Source: Gammaproteobacteria bacterium (GTDB taxonomy: Bacteria; Pseudomonadota; Gammaproteobacteria; HK1). From it: 64,000 nt of DNA. A program made the position numbers and the translations under genes. The DNA lies in NCBI GenBank assembly GCA_021773635.1, contig JAJFJV010000011.1, positions 1 through 64,000 of the forward strand, in the 5' to 3' direction. The notes beneath the pieces were generated by a model. That model was not told the origin of the DNA. It saw only the letters and a program-made list of their open reading frames with translations, and did no database searches. Position 1 is the first letter of the stretch. Each line of letters begins with the position of its first letter. Shown here piece by piece: positions 4,238 to 41,423 of this stretch.

Positions 4238-7027
4238 ATGGATTCGCTACTTTTTACCGGTAATGCAGAGTTTCTGGAAGATCTCTATCAAAGTTATCTG
4301 GAGAATCCTCAGAGTATTCCAGCCAACTGGCGGCAGTATTTTGATGGCTTGGGGGAGACCAGCCCGACGGCACCTTCTACCACCTCAACCATTCCAGTCA
4401 GCCGTCCCCCGGGGCAGACCGAAGCCGTGCTGGCCCAGAAGCAAATTGCGGTGACTCAACTGATTGCGGCCTATCGCTTTCGTGGGCATCGTCTGGCCGA
4501 CATCGATCCCCTGAAAATTTATGAGCGTGCCCCGGCCCGGGACCTGGATCCGGCATACCACGGGCTTACTGAAGCGGATCTGGACCACACCTACTACACC
4601 GGCATGGTGGAGGGCATCCCCAAGGGAACCCTGCGGGATATTCTTGCTAATCTGCGGGAAACCTACTGCGGCTCCATCGGTGCCGAATACATGTACATTA
4701 GTTCCAGCCGGCAAAAGGTCTGGATCCAGGACCGCCTCGAATCCTGCCAGGCACGCCCCGAATTTTCCGCCCAGAAGAAAAAGGACATCCTGCGCCAGCT
4801 CACCGCCGGGGTGAAGCTGGAGGAATACCTGCATCGTAAATATGTTGGCCAGAAGCGCTTTTCGCTGGAAGGGGGCGAAAGCCTGATCCCCATGCTGGAT
4901 GAGCTTATCCAGATCTCGGGCGAACAAGAGGTACGGGAAGTGATTATCGGCATGGCCCACCGTGGCCGGCTGAACGTCCTGGTCAATATCTTTGGTAAGA
5001 GTCCCGAACTGTTATTTGGAGAATTTGAGGGCAAGGTCAAGGCCAACCAGAACGGTTCTGGCGACGTCAAATATCACATGGGCTTTTCCTCCAATGTAGA
5101 AACCCCTGGAGGCGCCACCCATATCGTACTGTCCTTTAACCCTTCGCACCTGGAGATCATCAACCCGGTGATCGAAGGTTCGGTGCGTGCACGCCAGGAG
5201 CGACGCAAGGACCTGCGTCGCAACCAGGTGTTGCCCATCCAGATCCATGGTGACGCTGCCTTTGCCGGCCAGGGCGTAGTCACAGAGACCCTTAACCTCG
5301 CCGAGACCCGTGGATACAGTACCGGCGGCACCATCCACATCGTCATCAATAACCAGATCGGCTTTACCTCAAGCGACCCCCTGGATTCCCGCTCCACCCT
5401 CTATTGCACCGACATCGCCAAGCTGGTGCAGGCCCCCATCTTCCACGTCAACGGCAATGACCCCGAGGCCGTGCTGTTCGTCACCCGGCTGGCCGCGGAT
5501 TACCGCATGCGCTTCAATCGAGATGTAGTCATCGACCTGGTGTGCTTCCGCCGACACGGTCACAACGAGGCCGACGAGCCGCTGGTGACCCAACCGCTGA
5601 TGTATCAGCGGATTCGTGAGATAACCACCGTCCGTAAACTCTACGCGGACCATCTTGAGGCAGCCGGTGTGCTGGCGGATGGTGAAGCGGACCGCTACTG
5701 CGAGGAATATATCGCCGCTCTCGATGCCGAGCAGGTGGTCTCCCGCCCGCTAATGGCCAATCCCGATCCCAAACTATTGGTCAACTGGACCCCCTATCTG
5801 GGTGCCCACTGGACCGATGCGGGTGACACCACGATTTCCGCCAAACGTTTTGCGGAACTGGGTCAGAAGCTCACGGAATACCCGGAGGAATTCGAGCTCC
5901 ATCGCGTGGTCAACCGGCTAATCCGTAATCGCCGTGACATGGCTCAAGGCAAACGTCCCATGGATTGGGGTTTTGCCGAAAATCTGGCCTATGCCGCGCT
6001 GCTGGAGGATGGTTATCCCATCCGCCTATCGGGACAAGATAGTGGACGCGGCACTTTCTCTCATCGCCACGTAGTGCTCTACGATCAGAAAACCGGTCGT
6101 ACCCACGAGCCTCTGCAGCATTTGTTTCCCCGGCAGCCCGAATTTCAGGTCATTAACTCCCTGCTGTCAGAAGAAGCGGTGCTTGGCTTTGAATTCGGCT
6201 ACAGCTCATCAGAGCCCGAGAGCCTGGTGATCTGGGAGGCCCAGTTCGGCGATTTTGCCAATAATGCCCAAGTGGTTATCGACCAGTTCCTCAGCTCTTC
6301 CGAGGCAAAATGGGGGCGTTTTTGTGGGCTGACCATGCTGTTACCCCACGGCTTCGAGGGCCAGGGTCCGGAACATTCCTCGGCCCGCCTGGAACGCTAT
6401 CTCCAGCTCTGTGCCGAAGACAATATCCAGGTCTGTATGCCCAGTGCCCCGGCCCAGATCTTCCACCTGCTACGCCGCCAGATGATCCGCCCATTACGCC
6501 ATCCGCTGATCGTCATGTCACCCAAAAGCCTGCTCCGTCATCGCCTCGCCACGTCTACTGCAGAGGAATTGACCAGCGGTGGTTTTCAGCTGGTCATCGA
6601 CGAGGTTGATCCGCTCAAACCGGCGGGGATCACCCGGCTGGTGCTGTGTGCCGGCAAGGTCTATTACGACCTGCTGGAGGCACGCCGGGAACACGAACTT
6701 GATCACATCGCCATTGCCCGTATCGAACAGCTTTACCCCTTCCCCAAGGACGAGATCAATGCCCTGCTCGCCCGCTACCCCAAGGCCAAGGAGATCATCT
6801 GGGCTCAGGAGGAGCCACGTAACCAGGGCGCCTGGTTCCACATGCTCTCCAGCCGCCATCTCGCGGGCTGCATGGACCGCAAGCACACCCTGAGTTATGT
6901 GGGACGCGCCTACTCCGCATCCCCGGCGGCGGGCTCGCTGAGCGTCCACCTGGCGCAACAACAGGCCCTGGTGGATGAGGCACTCGGCCTAGCCACCGTT
7001 ACCTCTATAACCAAGAAAAGGGCCTAA
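4238..7027 (+). CDS. sucA: 2-oxoglutarate dehydrogenase E1 component
   Basis: 929 residues, close to the Escherichia coli enzyme (933). It decarboxylates 2-oxoglutarate with thiamine diphosphate and passes the succinyl group to the lipoyl arm of SucB. The N terminus FTGNAEFLEDLYQSYLENP is the conserved E1o arm that docks the E2 core. Further motifs are GMAHRGRLNVL and HGDAAFAGQGVV (cofactor site), NNQIGFT, RRHGHNEADEP, and HGFEGQGPEHSSAR in the C-terminal transketolase-like half. The ATG is the only possible start, since a stop codon lies 12 bases upstream in frame; no good Shine-Dalgarno sequence is close to it. It heads the sucA–sucB–lpd operon. Confidence 0.97.
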   Translation: MDSLLFTGNAEFLEDLYQSYLENPQSIPANWRQYFDGLGETSPTAPSTTSTIPVSRPPGQTEAVLAQKQIAVTQLIAAYRFRGHRLADIDPLKIYERAPARDLDPAYHGLTEADLDHTYYTGMVEGIPKGTLRDILANLRETYCGSIGAEYMYISSSRQKVWIQDRLESCQARPEFSAQKKKDILRQLTAGVKLEEYLHRKYVGQKRFSLEGGESLIPMLDELIQISGEQEVREVIIGMAHRGRLNVLVNIFGKSPELLFGEFEGKVKANQNGSGDVKYHMGFSSNVETPGGATHIVLSFNPSHLEIINPVIEGSVRARQERRKDLRRNQVLPIQIHGDAAFAGQGVVTETLNLAETRGYSTGGTIHIVINNQIGFTSSDPLDSRSTLYCTDIAKLVQAPIFHVNGNDPEAVLFVTRLAADYRMRFNRDVVIDLVCFRRHGHNEADEPLVTQPLMYQRIREITTVRKLYADHLEAAGVLADGEADRYCEEYIAALDAEQVVSRPLMANPDPKLLVNWTPYLGAHWTDAGDTTISAKRFAELGQKLTEYPEEFELHRVVNRLIRNRRDMAQGKRPMDWGFAENLAYAALLEDGYPIRLSGQDSGRGTFSHRHVVLYDQKTGRTHEPLQHLFPRQPEFQVINSLLSEEAVLGFEFGYSSSEPESLVIWEAQFGDFANNAQVVIDQFLSSSEAKWGRFCGLTMLLPHGFEGQGPEHSSARLERYLQLCAEDNIQVCMPSAPAQIFHLLRRQMIRPLRHPLIVMSPKSLLRHRLATSTAEELTSGGFQLVIDEVDPLKPAGITRLVLCAGKVYYDLLEARREHELDHIAIARIEQLYPFPKDEINALLARYPKAKEIIWAQEEPRNQGAWFHMLSSRHLAGCMDRKHTLSYVGRAYSASPAAGSLSVHLAQQQALVDEALGLATVTSITKKRA

Positions 7028-37314: not shown

Positions 37315-37806
37315 ATGGCCATTTTCGACCTCGACACCCAGGAATATAAGGTTAATGGTGCCCGTGTAGGTATCGTTTCCGCACGCTTTAACCACGAAAT
37401 TGTGGAAAAACTGGTCGCCGCCGCCATGGAAACCCTCGGCGACAACGGCATTGAGGAAAAGGCCATCCAGATCATTCGTGTACCCGGGGCCTTTGAACTG
37501 CCCCTGGCCACCCAGACGCTGGCCCGTAAGGGTGAATTTGAGGCAGTACTCGCCTTTGGCGCCATCATTCGCGGTGGCACTCCCCACTTTGAATACGTCG
37601 CCGGCGAATGCACCCGCGGCCTTGGGCAAGTGGCACTCGATGAGCAGCTCCCGGTACTGTTTGGCGTGCTGACCACCGACGATCAGGCACAAGCCCTGGC
37701 CCGCTGTGGTGGCAGTGACGGCAACAAGGGGCACGAGGTCGCGGTCGCGGCCCTGGAGATGATCACCCTGATGCGCCAGCTTGGTGAAGAGCGCCGAAAT
37801 GGCTAA
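37315..37806 (+). CDS. ribH: 6,7-dimethyl-8-ribityllumazine synthase
   Basis: 163 residues. It condenses the aminouracil from RibD with dihydroxybutanone phosphate from the RibB domain. Family motifs are VGIVSARFN, RVPGAFELPLA, the catalytic His in IIRGGTPHFEYVA, and LFGVLTTDDQAQALARCGG. It begins on the base after the ribBX stop codon and its last eight bases overlap nusB, so translation along the rib–nusB run is coupled. It normally assembles into pentamers or 60-mer shells. Confidence 0.97.
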   Translation: MAIFDLDTQEYKVNGARVGIVSARFNHEIVEKLVAAAMETLGDNGIEEKAIQIIRVPGAFELPLATQTLARKGEFEAVLAFGAIIRGGTPHFEYVAGECTRGLGQVALDEQLPVLFGVLTTDDQAQALARCGGSDGNKGHEVAVAALEMITLMRQLGEERRNG

Positions 37807-38245
37807 TTCTCCCCGTGTAACCGCTGGCGGCCGGCGGCGTGCCCGACGCGCGGCCATGCAGGCCCTGTACCAGTGGCAGAGCACGGCCCAAGGTACCCTG
37901 ACCATTGAGTCACAGTTCCTGGAAGATGATGGCCTGAAAAAAGCCGATATCCCCTATTTTCAGGACATTTTCACCAATCTTCCGGAAAAACTCGGAGAGC
38001 TGGACCCCTTGCTGGAGGCCTGTCTCGACCGCTCGGTCGCACAACTCAATCCGGTGGAACGGGCCATCTTGCGCGTTGCCAGCTATGAATTGCGTTTTCG
38101 TCGGGATGTGCCCTGGCGCGTCGTTATCAACGAGGCGGTCGAGCTGGCCAAGGATTTTGGTGCCGCCGGCGCGCATAAATACGTCAACGGCGTGCTCGAT
38201 AAACTGCACCACGATCTGGAACAAAACACCGATAAAAGTGACTAG
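37799..38245 (+). CDS. nusB: Transcription antitermination factor NusB
   Basis: 148 residues from the ATG that overlaps the end of ribH; an upstream in-frame ATG would give six extra unconserved residues. The all-helical NusB pattern is clear: RRRARRAAMQALYQWQ (RNA-binding basic N terminus), LLEACLDRSVAQLNPVERAILRVASYELRFRRDVPWRVVINEAVELAKDFG and HKYVNGVLDKL. NusB with NusE binds boxA in rRNA leaders. The ribH–nusB–thiL order is widespread in Gammaproteobacteria. Confidence 0.96.
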   Translation: MANSPRVTAGGRRRARRAAMQALYQWQSTAQGTLTIESQFLEDDGLKKADIPYFQDIFTNLPEKLGELDPLLEACLDRSVAQLNPVERAILRVASYELRFRRDVPWRVVINEAVELAKDFGAAGAHKYVNGVLDKLHHDLEQNTDKSD

Positions 38246-38249
38246 GCAC

Positions 38250-39146
38250 GTGGCAACTGAAACGGCCTCCGGTTACCACCAATTGTCCCCCGAGCTACAG
38301 TGGGCAGTATCCATGGATGCGCTGGTATCGGGAGTCCACTTTCCCCCTGCCATGACACCCGCCACCCTCGGTTATCGCAGCCTTGCGGTAAATCTCAGTG
38401 ATATGGCCGCCATGGGCGCCAGGCCCCGGTGGCTAAACCTTGCCCTGACCTTGCCGAATCCCCACGATGATACCTGGTTGAATGACTTTTACCGGGGGCT
38501 CTCAGAGCTTGCCGACGCGCACGACACCATGCTCGATGCCACCCGGATACAACCCGGCCCACTCAGTGTGAGCATCGAGATCTGGGGCGAGGTACCCATC
38601 GGTGCCGCCTTGTGCCGTCGGGGGGCGCAGCCAGGTGATGGCATCTACGTCACTGGCACTCTGGGGGATGCGGGCCTGGCCATCCAGGTGATGGAGCGCG
38701 ATCTGGAGCTCAATGCGGAGGATCTCGCCTGGGTGGAGCGTCGCTACAGCCATCCAACGCCGCGCGTTGCCGCCGGATTACAGCTACGGAATACCGCCTC
38801 TGCCGCCATCGATCTCTCTGACGGGCTGGTGGGAGATCTCGGCCACATCTTGGAAGCAAGTGCCGTGGGTGCCACGCTGGAGCTGGATGCCCTGCCCCTC
38901 TCTCCAGCCTGTCGCAACAGCCTCCCCCGGGAACAGGCATGGAAGCTCGCCCTTGGCGCCGGGGATGATTATGAGCTTTGCTTTACTGCCCCGCCGGAGC
39001 AACGAACGCACATCGGGGAAGTGATGGACACCATCAATTGTCCGGTTCATCACATCGGCAGGGTTGAGGCCAGATCAGGACTGCGTTGCCACAATGAAAG
39101 TGGCACACCCTTCACTTCTGGCCGGGCCTACCAACACTTCAGCTGA
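38250..39146 (+). CDS. ThiL-like protein A: thiamine-monophosphate kinase missing GDD and GGDTT motifs
   Basis: 298 residues from a GTG start four bases after nusB (another GTG lies 12 bases earlier). In its normal chromosomal place, but altered. It retains the SMDALVSGVHF segment (Asp23), NLSDMAAMGA (Asp51), and the whole C-terminal domain with PGDGIYVTGTLGDAGLA, SAAIDLSDGLVGDLGHI and GAGDDYELCF. The N-terminal strand with GIGDDAA is absent, about 22 residues short, and the position of GGDTTRG reads ATRIQPG without gaps. ThiL phosphorylates thiamine monophosphate; alone this protein lacks parts of the ATP/metal site. A second gene at 40279 has exactly the missing motifs. It overlaps pgpA by one base. 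Confidence 0.9.
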   Translation: MATETASGYHQLSPELQWAVSMDALVSGVHFPPAMTPATLGYRSLAVNLSDMAAMGARPRWLNLALTLPNPHDDTWLNDFYRGLSELADAHDTMLDATRIQPGPLSVSIEIWGEVPIGAALCRRGAQPGDGIYVTGTLGDAGLAIQVMERDLELNAEDLAWVERRYSHPTPRVAAGLQLRNTASAAIDLSDGLVGDLGHILEASAVGATLELDALPLSPACRNSLPREQAWKLALGAGDDYELCFTAPPEQRTHIGEVMDTINCPVHHIGRVEARSGLRCHNESGTPFTSGRAYQHFS

Positions 39147-39646
39147 TGAAGCAGCCCACTTTTCAATTGCTCCGTGAGCACCCGGCATATCTGATCGCCT
39201 GTGGTTTTGGCAGCGGCCTGGCGCCCCGTGCGCCCGGCACCGCAGGCACCCTGGTGGGAGTACTCATCTACCTCGCGCTGCGCCCCCTCCCCCTCTACCC
39301 CTATCTTGCTATTACCGCGTTAAGCATCATTGTGGGGGTCTGGCTTTGCGGCGTCACCGCTCGGCGCCTGGAAACCCACGATCATCCGGCCATAGTCTGG
39401 GACGAGATCGCAGGCTATCTCGTCACCATGTGTGCCGCGCCCGCCGGCTGGATCTGGCCAGTCATCGGTTTTGTCGCCTTTCGCGTCTTCGATATCCTTA
39501 AACCCTGGCCAATCTCACTGCTTGACCGGCGGGTCCCCGGGGGGCTCGGCATCATGCTGGACGATGTGCTGGCGGGTGCTCTGGCCTGGCTGGTGGTCCA
39601 GGGTGCGGCGCAGTGGCTGCAGAACGGTGCTCATTTGCCGCTATAA
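39146..39646 (+). CDS. pgpA: Phosphatidylglycerophosphatase A
   Basis: 166 residues. An inner-membrane phosphatase that makes phosphatidylglycerol. Features are FGSGLAPRAPGTAGTL near the N terminus, three to four hydrophobic segments, and the acidic active-site motifs HPAIVWDEIAGYL, FRVFDILKPWPI and GIMLDDVLAG. The start codon overlaps the stop codon of the preceding ThiL-like gene (TGATGA), as in the usual thiL–pgpA pairing. Confidence 0.95.
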   Translation: MKQPTFQLLREHPAYLIACGFGSGLAPRAPGTAGTLVGVLIYLALRPLPLYPYLAITALSIIVGVWLCGVTARRLETHDHPAIVWDEIAGYLVTMCAAPAGWIWPVIGFVAFRVFDILKPWPISLLDRRVPGGLGIMLDDVLAGALAWLVVQGAAQWLQNGAHLPL

Positions 39647-39681
39647 TCGGCACATACCAACGGGAAGCCCGCATTGTCACC

Positions 39682-40266
39682 ATGCCATCTCGCCTGCTAC
39701 TGCTATTAGTGCTCCTGTCACCGCTCACCGCGGCCTGGGGCGATATCTACAAATACACCGATGCCAATGGCATCGTGCACCTCTCTGATCGCCCGCTGGG
39801 TCCCGGCTACCGGGCCATTGTGCGTACCTGGAAAGGCTGGGTTCCCAAGGGCATCCACTGGAGCCGCGCCAACCGCAAACGCTATACCCCGCTGATCGAC
39901 CGTGCCGCCAGGCGCTACCGTATGGATAAGGCCCTGGTGCACGCCGTAGTTACGGCGGAATCGGCCTACGATGCCAAGGCTGTCTCCCGTGCGGGGGCGG
40001 TCGGGCTCATGCAACTCATGCCGGGAACTGCGAGTCGTTATGGGGTCAGTAATCGCAGAGACCCTGCGGCGAATCTTGACGGCGGGGTGCACTACCTGCG
40101 CGATCTGATCACACGCTTTCGCAACGTACGCCTTGCCCTGGCGGCCTATAACGCAGGCGAAAATGCAGTCGCCCGTTACGGTAATCAGATTCCCCCCTAC
40201 CCCGAAACTCAGAATTATGTGCGCAAGGTGCTGGATTATTATCGTAGCTACCGGCGCGCCTCGTAG
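39682..40266 (+). CDS. Lytic transglycosylase with DUF4124 domain
   Basis: 194 residues from the ATG giving MPSRLLLLLVLLSPLTAAWG, a signal peptide. The mature N terminus DIYKYTDANGIVHLSDRP is the DUF4124 domain often found at the start of periplasmic proteins. The rest is a Slt-type lysozyme-like domain with the catalytic Glu in VTAESAYDAKAVSRAGAVGLMQLMPGTA and the AAYNAGENAV motif. It cleaves peptidoglycan glycan strands, forming anhydromuramyl ends. It sits between the two ThiL-like genes on the same strand, 12 bases before the second. Confidence 0.92.
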   Translation: MPSRLLLLLVLLSPLTAAWGDIYKYTDANGIVHLSDRPLGPGYRAIVRTWKGWVPKGIHWSRANRKRYTPLIDRAARRYRMDKALVHAVVTAESAYDAKAVSRAGAVGLMQLMPGTASRYGVSNRRDPAANLDGGVHYLRDLITRFRNVRLALAAYNAGENAVARYGNQIPPYPETQNYVRKVLDYYRSYRRAS

Positions 40267-40278
40267 ACGTAGCACTCC

Positions 40279-40728
40279 ATGCCACTCGAAGAATTTTCTC
40301 TCATCGACCGCTTTTTCAAGCGGCCCGCCGACAATCATGATGGTGTTGTGGTGGGTATTGGAGATGATGCGGCGGTACTCCAGCCCCCTCCGGGTCAGGC
40401 AATGATCAGTGCAATCGCCTGCCAAAACAGCCCCGATCCCCGACTACAGGCAGTAGATGCCGCAGACTTCGCCACACAGCTCGTCACCGAGGGGAAAAAA
40501 CAGCTTGTAGCCCGGAATGCCCGACCGGCCTGGGCCACCCTCGCCCTGTGCCTGCCAGCCGCCGATGAAGCCTGGCTGGATGCCTTCAGCACCCGGCTAC
40601 TGCAAACCTGTGAGGAATGTGGGTTGCGTCTGGTGGGAGGTGATACCACCAGCGGCCCCCTGAATGCCGTGCTTGCCGTTCACGGCCTGGTCCCGGCGCG
40701 AAATAGCATCCCTGGCCGGGGCACTTGA
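40279..40728 (+). CDS. ThiL-like protein B: short, keeps GDD and GGDTT motifs only
   Basis: 149 residues. The N terminus EEFSLIDRFFKRP…GIGDDAAVL (GDD at 28-30) and later LALCLPAADEAWLDAF and LVGGDTTSGPL (GGDTT at 120-124) align with the first half of ThiL without gaps. The STD segment reads AIA (45-47) and the NLSD segment reads GKKQ (72-75), so those metal-binding Asp residues are lost. The protein stops about where the C-terminal ATP-grasping domain would begin. It is therefore the complement of the ThiL-like protein at 38250. The last bases overlap a TTG start for mutH. It could be a subunit of a two-part enzyme or a decaying paralogue. Confidence 0.85.
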   Translation: MPLEEFSLIDRFFKRPADNHDGVVVGIGDDAAVLQPPPGQAMISAIACQNSPDPRLQAVDAADFATQLVTEGKKQLVARNARPAWATLALCLPAADEAWLDAFSTRLLQTCEECGLRLVGGDTTSGPLNAVLAVHGLVPARNSIPGRGT

Positions 40729-41423
40729 GCAAGATCGAAAGCCCCCCCTTTCCGGCCCCGCCCCCCAGGGACGAACATGAACTGATGGCCCGCACCCAGG
40801 CCATCGCTGGCCTCAGCCTAGGAGAGCTGGCGCAACGCTATCAGCAAATCATACCCGGAGAAAACCGCCGCGCGAAAGGTTGGGCTGGACAATTTTTAGA
40901 GGGCGTCCTCGGGGCCACCGCCTCATCCCTGCCGGAACCGGATTTTCAGGCCATCGGGGTTGAGCTCAAGACCCTGCCCATCAGTCTGGAGGGCCAGCCA
41001 CTGGAAAGCACCTATGTCTGCCCGGTTGCACTCTCCGGGGAGGACGGAGTGTGTTGGGAAGGCTCCTATCTGCGACGAAAAATGGCCCGGGTGCTGTGGC
41101 TCCCCATTGCTGGCCCGCGAGGTGCGCCGGTAACCGAACGCCGTATTGCCACGCCGCTGCTTTGGTCGCCAAATGAAAGCGAGGAGGCCACACTAAAACA
41201 GGATTGGGAGGAGCTGATGGAACTCGTAACCCTTGGCCAAATCGACCAGATCACGGCCCATCACGGTGTCCACCTGCAGATCCGTCCCAAGGGGGCAAAT
41301 GCCCGCAGCCTGCGCCGCGGTACTGGTACGGAGGGACAACCCACTTGGCTACTACCCCGGGGATTTTATCTGCGCACATCCTTCACCCGACAGATTCTGG
41401 AACGGGCTTATATCCTGCCCTGA
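40725..41423 (+). CDS. mutH: DNA mismatch repair endonuclease MutH
   Basis: 232 residues from a TTG start overlapping the preceding stop codon; the N terminus PPRDEHELMARTQAIAGLSLGELAQ aligns with E. coli MutH, supporting this start over a later ATG. It nicks the unmethylated strand at hemimethylated GATC sites when activated by MutS and MutL. The active-site set is visible in EPDFQAIGVELKTLPI (Asp, Glu, Lys), with the conserved RVLWLPI, LLWSPNESEEATLKQDWEEL and LQIRPKGANAR. MutH is restricted to Gammaproteobacteria with Dam methylation, a useful taxonomic marker. Confidence 0.95.
   Translation: MSKIESPPFPAPPPRDEHELMARTQAIAGLSLGELAQRYQQIIPGENRRAKGWAGQFLEGVLGATASSLPEPDFQAIGVELKTLPISLEGQPLESTYVCPVALSGEDGVCWEGSYLRRKMARVLWLPIAGPRGAPVTERRIATPLLWSPNESEEATLKQDWEELMELVTLGQIDQITAHHGVHLQIRPKGANARSLRRGTGTEGQPTWLLPRGFYLRTSFTRQILERAYILP

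Follow-up and report, generated by a model that had tools for sequence, protein, structure and literature searches.

Two complementary ThiL-like genes as a putative heterodimeric thiamine-monophosphate kinase in gammaproteobacteria

Two genes located in the window (the whole 64,000-nucleotide stretch of DNA that we analysed), here called A and B, very probably are paralogues derived from a duplicated thiL gene and together encode an obligate heterodimeric thiamine-monophosphate (TMP) kinase. A previous sequence-only reading of the window had proposed a heterodimeric ThiL formed by duplication and reciprocal loss, and had suggested searching for the same pair in relatives, for a complete ThiL in the rest of the genome and for purifying selection on both reading frames. 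The proposal is supported by the same partition of residues in 25 genomes, by the signs of selection on both genes, by the lack of a complete ThiL in these genomes and by the trans architecture of the known ThiL site.

Two incomplete thiL genes in the window

The features are listed below, with residues numbered after ThiL of P. aeruginosa (PaThiL); the numbering was verified one by one against the PDB-derived PaThiL sequence.

37799..38245, + strand: nusB, directly upstream of A, the usual thiL position (TIGR01951, 134 bits)
38250..39146, + strand: gene A, putative TMP/metal subunit of ThiL (298 aa; GTG start at 38250 assumed)
38316..38318, + strand: SMD aspartate of A (PaThiL D47), metal ligand in trans, role according to PMC13254938; present in 25/25 A, 0/25 B
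38400..38402, + strand: NLSD aspartate of A (PaThiL D75), metal ligand in trans, role according to PMC13254938; present in 25/25 A, 0/25 B
38538..38558, + strand: ATRIQPG of A in place of the ATP-binding GGDTTRG, as aligned with PaThiL and full-length ThiLs
38811..38846, + strand: IDLSDG...D..H region of A (PaThiL D211, S213, D214, D219, H222), metal/TMP side; present in 25/25 A
39146..39646, + strand: pgpA, overlapping the stop codon of A (PF04608, 142 bits)
39679..40266, + strand: lytic transglycosylase gene (slt) between pgpA and B (PF01464 SLT)
40279..40728, + strand: gene B, putative ATP subunit, ThiL N-terminal domain only (149 aa)
40360..40368, + strand: GDD loop of B (PaThiL G28-D29-D30), ATP ribose/metal; present in 25/25 B
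40636..40650, + strand: GGDTT of B (PaThiL G120-T124), adenine/ribose/Mg; present in 24/24 complete B, with T replaced by S in one genus
40725..41423, + strand: mutH, overlapping the stop codon of B (NF003458, 303 bits); adjoins B across the family by synteny

Gene A matches the thiL profile TIGR01379 with 274 bits (cut-off 184 bits) over positions 35-320, and contains both the AIRS and the AIRS_C domains of Pfam. It lacks ThiL positions 1-33, GDD included, as well as GGDTT; since the nusB stop (38245) lies a few bases before A, the first 33 ThiL positions are physically missing from it. The order ribH-nusB-A-pgpA, found in the window and in relatives, is that of the proteobacterial thiL neighbourhood nusB-thiL-pgpA. 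Gene B matches TIGR01379 with 76 bits over positions 1-141, which is under the curated thiL cut-off, and AIRS is its only Pfam domain; it carries the motifs GIGDDAA and GGDTTSG, and has Ala at the STD Asp and Gln at the NLSD Asp. Neither PurM, nor HypE, nor SelD is the best match of these proteins, as both score highest with thiL models and the HypE and PurM of this genome are separate genes. Thus, alignment, profile positions, domain content and gene order bear out the sequence-only reading, which had placed A in the nusB–thiL–pgpA slot, without GDD and with ATRIQPG for GGDTTRG, retaining the STD-type Asp, NLSD and a full C-terminal domain (AIRS_C, SDG region present), and had described B as keeping GIGDDAA and GGDTT and as lacking the STD and NLSD acidic residues and the C-terminal domain.

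Distribution of the gene pair

The same pair occurs in relatives. We sampled 17 genomes from 8 genera of the window's family (a search by order gave the same 17 genomes), and A and B are both present in all of them, with open frames save for one B which is cut by a contig end. A contig scan with B gave matches in two congeners, the MAGs OFTM67 and OFTM50. The gene order ribH-nusB-A-pgpA-(slt)-B-mutH is conserved in the family wherever contigs allow; in G006 and G015 A and B lie apart, yet B still adjoins mutH. The single-contig genomes G004, G013 and G015 carry the pair.

Most of the 276 gammaproteobacterial genomes in our class-wide sample have one full-length ThiL. Genomes with weak-scoring ThiL matches were inspected, and among them the reciprocal pair was found in 8 more genomes belonging to four other gammaproteobacterial families:

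f2: G017 and G159, reciprocal A/B pair
f62: G077, reciprocal A/B pair
f42: G057, G183 and G272, reciprocal A/B pair
f119: G134 and G234, reciprocal A/B pair

The total set therefore comprises 25 genomes of 5 families, 24 of them with a complete B gene, and such recurrence speaks against chance as the source of the pair in the window. No pair was found outside the class among 130 genomes of the phylum, a search which is less sensitive for distant genomes. The profile search detected no complete ThiL elsewhere in the window's genome (46 contigs, 99.6% complete), the other two matches there being HypE (370 bits) and PurM, and none in any of the 25 split genomes.

Two further candidates were not retained. 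In G070 (L133, C1:170303-171230) two adjacent overlapping ORFs tile one intact ThiL, and we rejected it as a further split; this thiL is otherwise ordinary and its break resembles a frameshift or a sequencing error. A short match in G222 was set aside, being cut by a contig end.

Division of the trans active site between A and B

PaThiL has two active sites at the dimer interface, each composite across protomers: AMP-PNP is bound by one protomer via helix 1, G28-D29-D30, G121, D122 and T123, and the opposite protomer gives D47', D75' and D211' to the metals and H54', Y189' and D214' to TMP, with D219' and H222' close (PMC13254938). ThiL of A. baumannii (AbThiL) has the same trans site architecture (PMC6416309). 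We scored 6 ATP-side and 8 TMP-side residues, accepting Ser for Thr at position 123; S45 and Y189 were left out of the count because they are variable among ordinary ThiLs.

All 8 TMP-side residues are present in A in 25/25 genomes, together with 0-3 of the 6 ATP-side ones, and all 6 ATP-side residues are present in B in 24/24 complete genes, together with 0-3 of the 8 TMP-side ones. The reference ordinary ThiLs have both sets (11 of the 12 at 7-8/8, and a diverged one at 6). No residue is missing from both copies, and the union of A and B is complete in every genome with a complete B. A complete active site (GDD, STD, NLSD, GGDTT, SDG) in a single chain occurs in 0/25 genomes, being divided between A and B in each. 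Helix 1 (F4, I7, F11) and the adenine-pocket residues W85/L88, which lie beyond the set considered by the sequence-only reading, also go with B. The losses in A and B match the two sides of the published trans site exactly, and the claim that each lost residue set is present in the partner gene holds in every genome with a complete B and for the site sides of both PaThiL and AbThiL. Because the ATP and TMP motifs alternate along the N-domain (GDD for ATP, then STD and NLSD for TMP, then GGDTT for ATP), a simple gene break or truncation alone cannot yield this pattern. In a few A proteins single ATP-side letters persist; part of these are alignment coincidences, and others, such as D122 in 5/17, possibly are not.

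We propose that thiL duplicated and that each copy could then have dropped the half of the composite site which its partner supplies. B would be the ATP subunit, reduced to the N-terminal domain, and A would be the TMP/metal subunit, with no N-terminal arm, a dead ATP loop and a complete C-terminal domain. The N-terminal arm and the GDD loop of B would reach across onto A. As the losses follow the division of the trans site, only one of the two composite sites of an A:B dimer would be complete and working, and the other would be dead, having lost both its sides. The A:B assembly, catalysis at a single site and the route by duplication are what we infer from this pattern. AlphaFold2 models made from three sequences had pLDDT values of 37 (A) and 50 (B), too low for use.

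It could be argued that A alone is the TMP kinase, its homodimer having a modified ATP site, and that B is a fragment of regulatory or unrelated function. A does exceed the cut-off of the NCBI thiL model, and so databases would name it ThiL. However, helix 1, the GDD loop and GGDTT, that is, the entire published ATP contact set, are absent from A in 25/25 genomes, and it is exactly this set that B retains while co-occurring with A in every genome, which makes such an explanation very improbable.

Need for the kinase, selection and origin of the pair

The window's genome has both thiE and thiC. Of the 17 family genomes, 13 have thiE above the cut-off and 14 have thiC; thiE is also above the cut-off in all of the 8 others. 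G005, G010 and G016 gave no thiC match, G005 also no thiE match, and the A/B pair is still present in them. These three probably salvage thiamine or a precursor, and ThiL would be needed even if thiamine or TMP were salvaged. Thiamine pyrophosphokinase, which bypasses ThiL, was not found in any of the 25 split genomes.

It might also be that the A:B heterodimer is real and has shifted from TMP to another substrate of the PurM superfamily, as residues alone cannot tell function and thiC is missing from three genomes. On the other hand, the TMP-side contacts H54, D211, S213, D214, D219 and H222 are present in 25/25 A proteins, A still occupies the ancestral nusB-pgpA position, and in most genomes thiE would leave TMP without another kinase. 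We thus consider a change of substrate very unlikely.

Both A and B are under purifying selection and neither looks like a pseudogene: among three congeners, dN/dS (Nei-Gojobori) was 0.12-0.16 for A, 0.10-0.17 for B, close to the 0.02-0.13 of neighbouring genes, values which are rough because synonymous sites are near saturation. This bears on decaying duplication, which the sequence-only reading had taken for the main alternative and in which A and B would be what is left of thiL copies that had become redundant, TPP being made by another kinase or taken up. Catalytic residues are indeed missing from both proteins, and B is short and falls under the curated thiL cut-offs. Nevertheless, frames are open and the partition is identical in 25 genomes of 5 families, dN/dS stays at 0.10-0.17, no residue is gone from both copies, and the bypass enzyme is absent throughout.

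The genus sampled in family f50, where thiamine pyrophosphokinase is present, offers a contrast. Its only ThiL-like protein, encoded between nusB and pgpA, has an open frame and has lost active-site residues (loci L130, L131 and L135, in G065, G275 and G187, respectively). Retained are 2/6 ATP-side and 1/8 TMP-side residues in G065, 2/6 and 2/8 in G275, and 6/6 and 5/8 in G187, whose losses are on the TMP side only. This protein may be decaying or in a new role; its losses have the appearance of free decay, from which the split genomes look different. Taken with the partition shared by 25 genomes, this contrast contradicts decaying duplication as an account of A and B, and we regard it as highly unlikely.

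An assembly or frameshift artefact dividing one thiL can practically be dismissed: although the assemblies are mostly multi-contig and probably MAGs (as are the two named congeners), and in G070 a thiL is indeed broken into adjacent ORFs in this way, A and B overlap across ThiL positions 34-142 (~110 positions) with different sequences and are therefore two copies rather than two pieces of one broken gene, and assemblies made independently of each other show the pair again, the single-contig G004, G013 and G015 among them.

Both proteins of the favoured A:B heterodimer are homologous to ThiL (TIGR01379; PaThiL 8YKS, AbThiL 5CC8/5DD7, AaThiL 3C9R-U). Taken together, A and B possess all the described metal, ATP and TMP contacts that do not vary among ordinary ThiLs, and A shares their nusB-thiL-pgpA location. 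However, the known ThiLs form homodimers whose two composite sites are identical, whereas here the two sides are on separate genes, B has no C-terminal domain, and the arrangement predicts one site per dimer. In heterodimeric ABC exporters one ATP site is of the consensus type and the other is degenerate, both being composite and at the dimer interface. These exporters resemble the A/B pair in that duplication allows one of two interface sites to die; they differ in that their fold is unrelated, neither subunit lacks a domain, and nucleotide is usually still bound at the degenerate site. In PurL one half works and the other is non-catalytic, but it is a single fused chain with another reaction, whereas A and B are separate copies, one of them without a whole domain. 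This FGAM synthase of the PurM superfamily is thought to stem from gene duplication and fusion (PMC5919458). We found no heterodimeric, split or duplicated ThiL described in the open-access papers that we searched. The fold, the reaction and the composite site of ThiL are already known, and the new element would be the two-gene, single-site variant.

If true, the A/B pair would be a natural example of duplication with complementary degeneration that is unusually clean and resolved to single residues, and in which the trans-built sites of a homodimer gave way to an obligate heterodimer, each copy being free to lose the half supplied by its partner. Half-of-sites catalysis would be predicted, and a ratchet-like gain of complexity would become directly testable, with a natural control in genomes where thiamine pyrophosphokinase bypasses ThiL and the latter decays on both sides. 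The pair is also an annotation trap, as A would be named a normal thiL and B would be overlooked.

Graded intermediates are available. B of G006 has a full C-domain, but LPNG for SDG, R at D75 and K at D47, and A of the same genome has LLGGTFNRG for GGDTTRG, in which a trace of the ATP loop can still be recognised. The B series runs from this full-length protein with one side dead, through the degenerate C-domains of G008, G009 and G234, to the window's B, which is a bare N-domain. It thus seems that point losses came before domain loss, as duplication with complementary degeneration would predict. In a protein tree a branch with an SH-aLRT of 89 sets the B rows apart, and the A rows are intermixed with ordinary ThiLs, a single A clade not being rejected (p-AU 0.094); convergent loss and long branches may distort both results. 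That the change from a homodimer to a single-site obligate heterodimer of an ATP and a TMP/metal subunit took place more than once, independently in several lineages of the Gammaproteobacteria, is a tentative idea, and we hold it to be rather doubtful.

Two B genes have unusual surroundings. In G134 (L152, about 4360-5583, minus strand) B is fused in frame to mutH in one open frame of ~410 codons. In G013 (L079, contig C1, about 3793000-3797400) there are two B copies ~4 kb apart, a local duplication in which the N-domains are nearly identical and just a partial mutH match lies between the copies.
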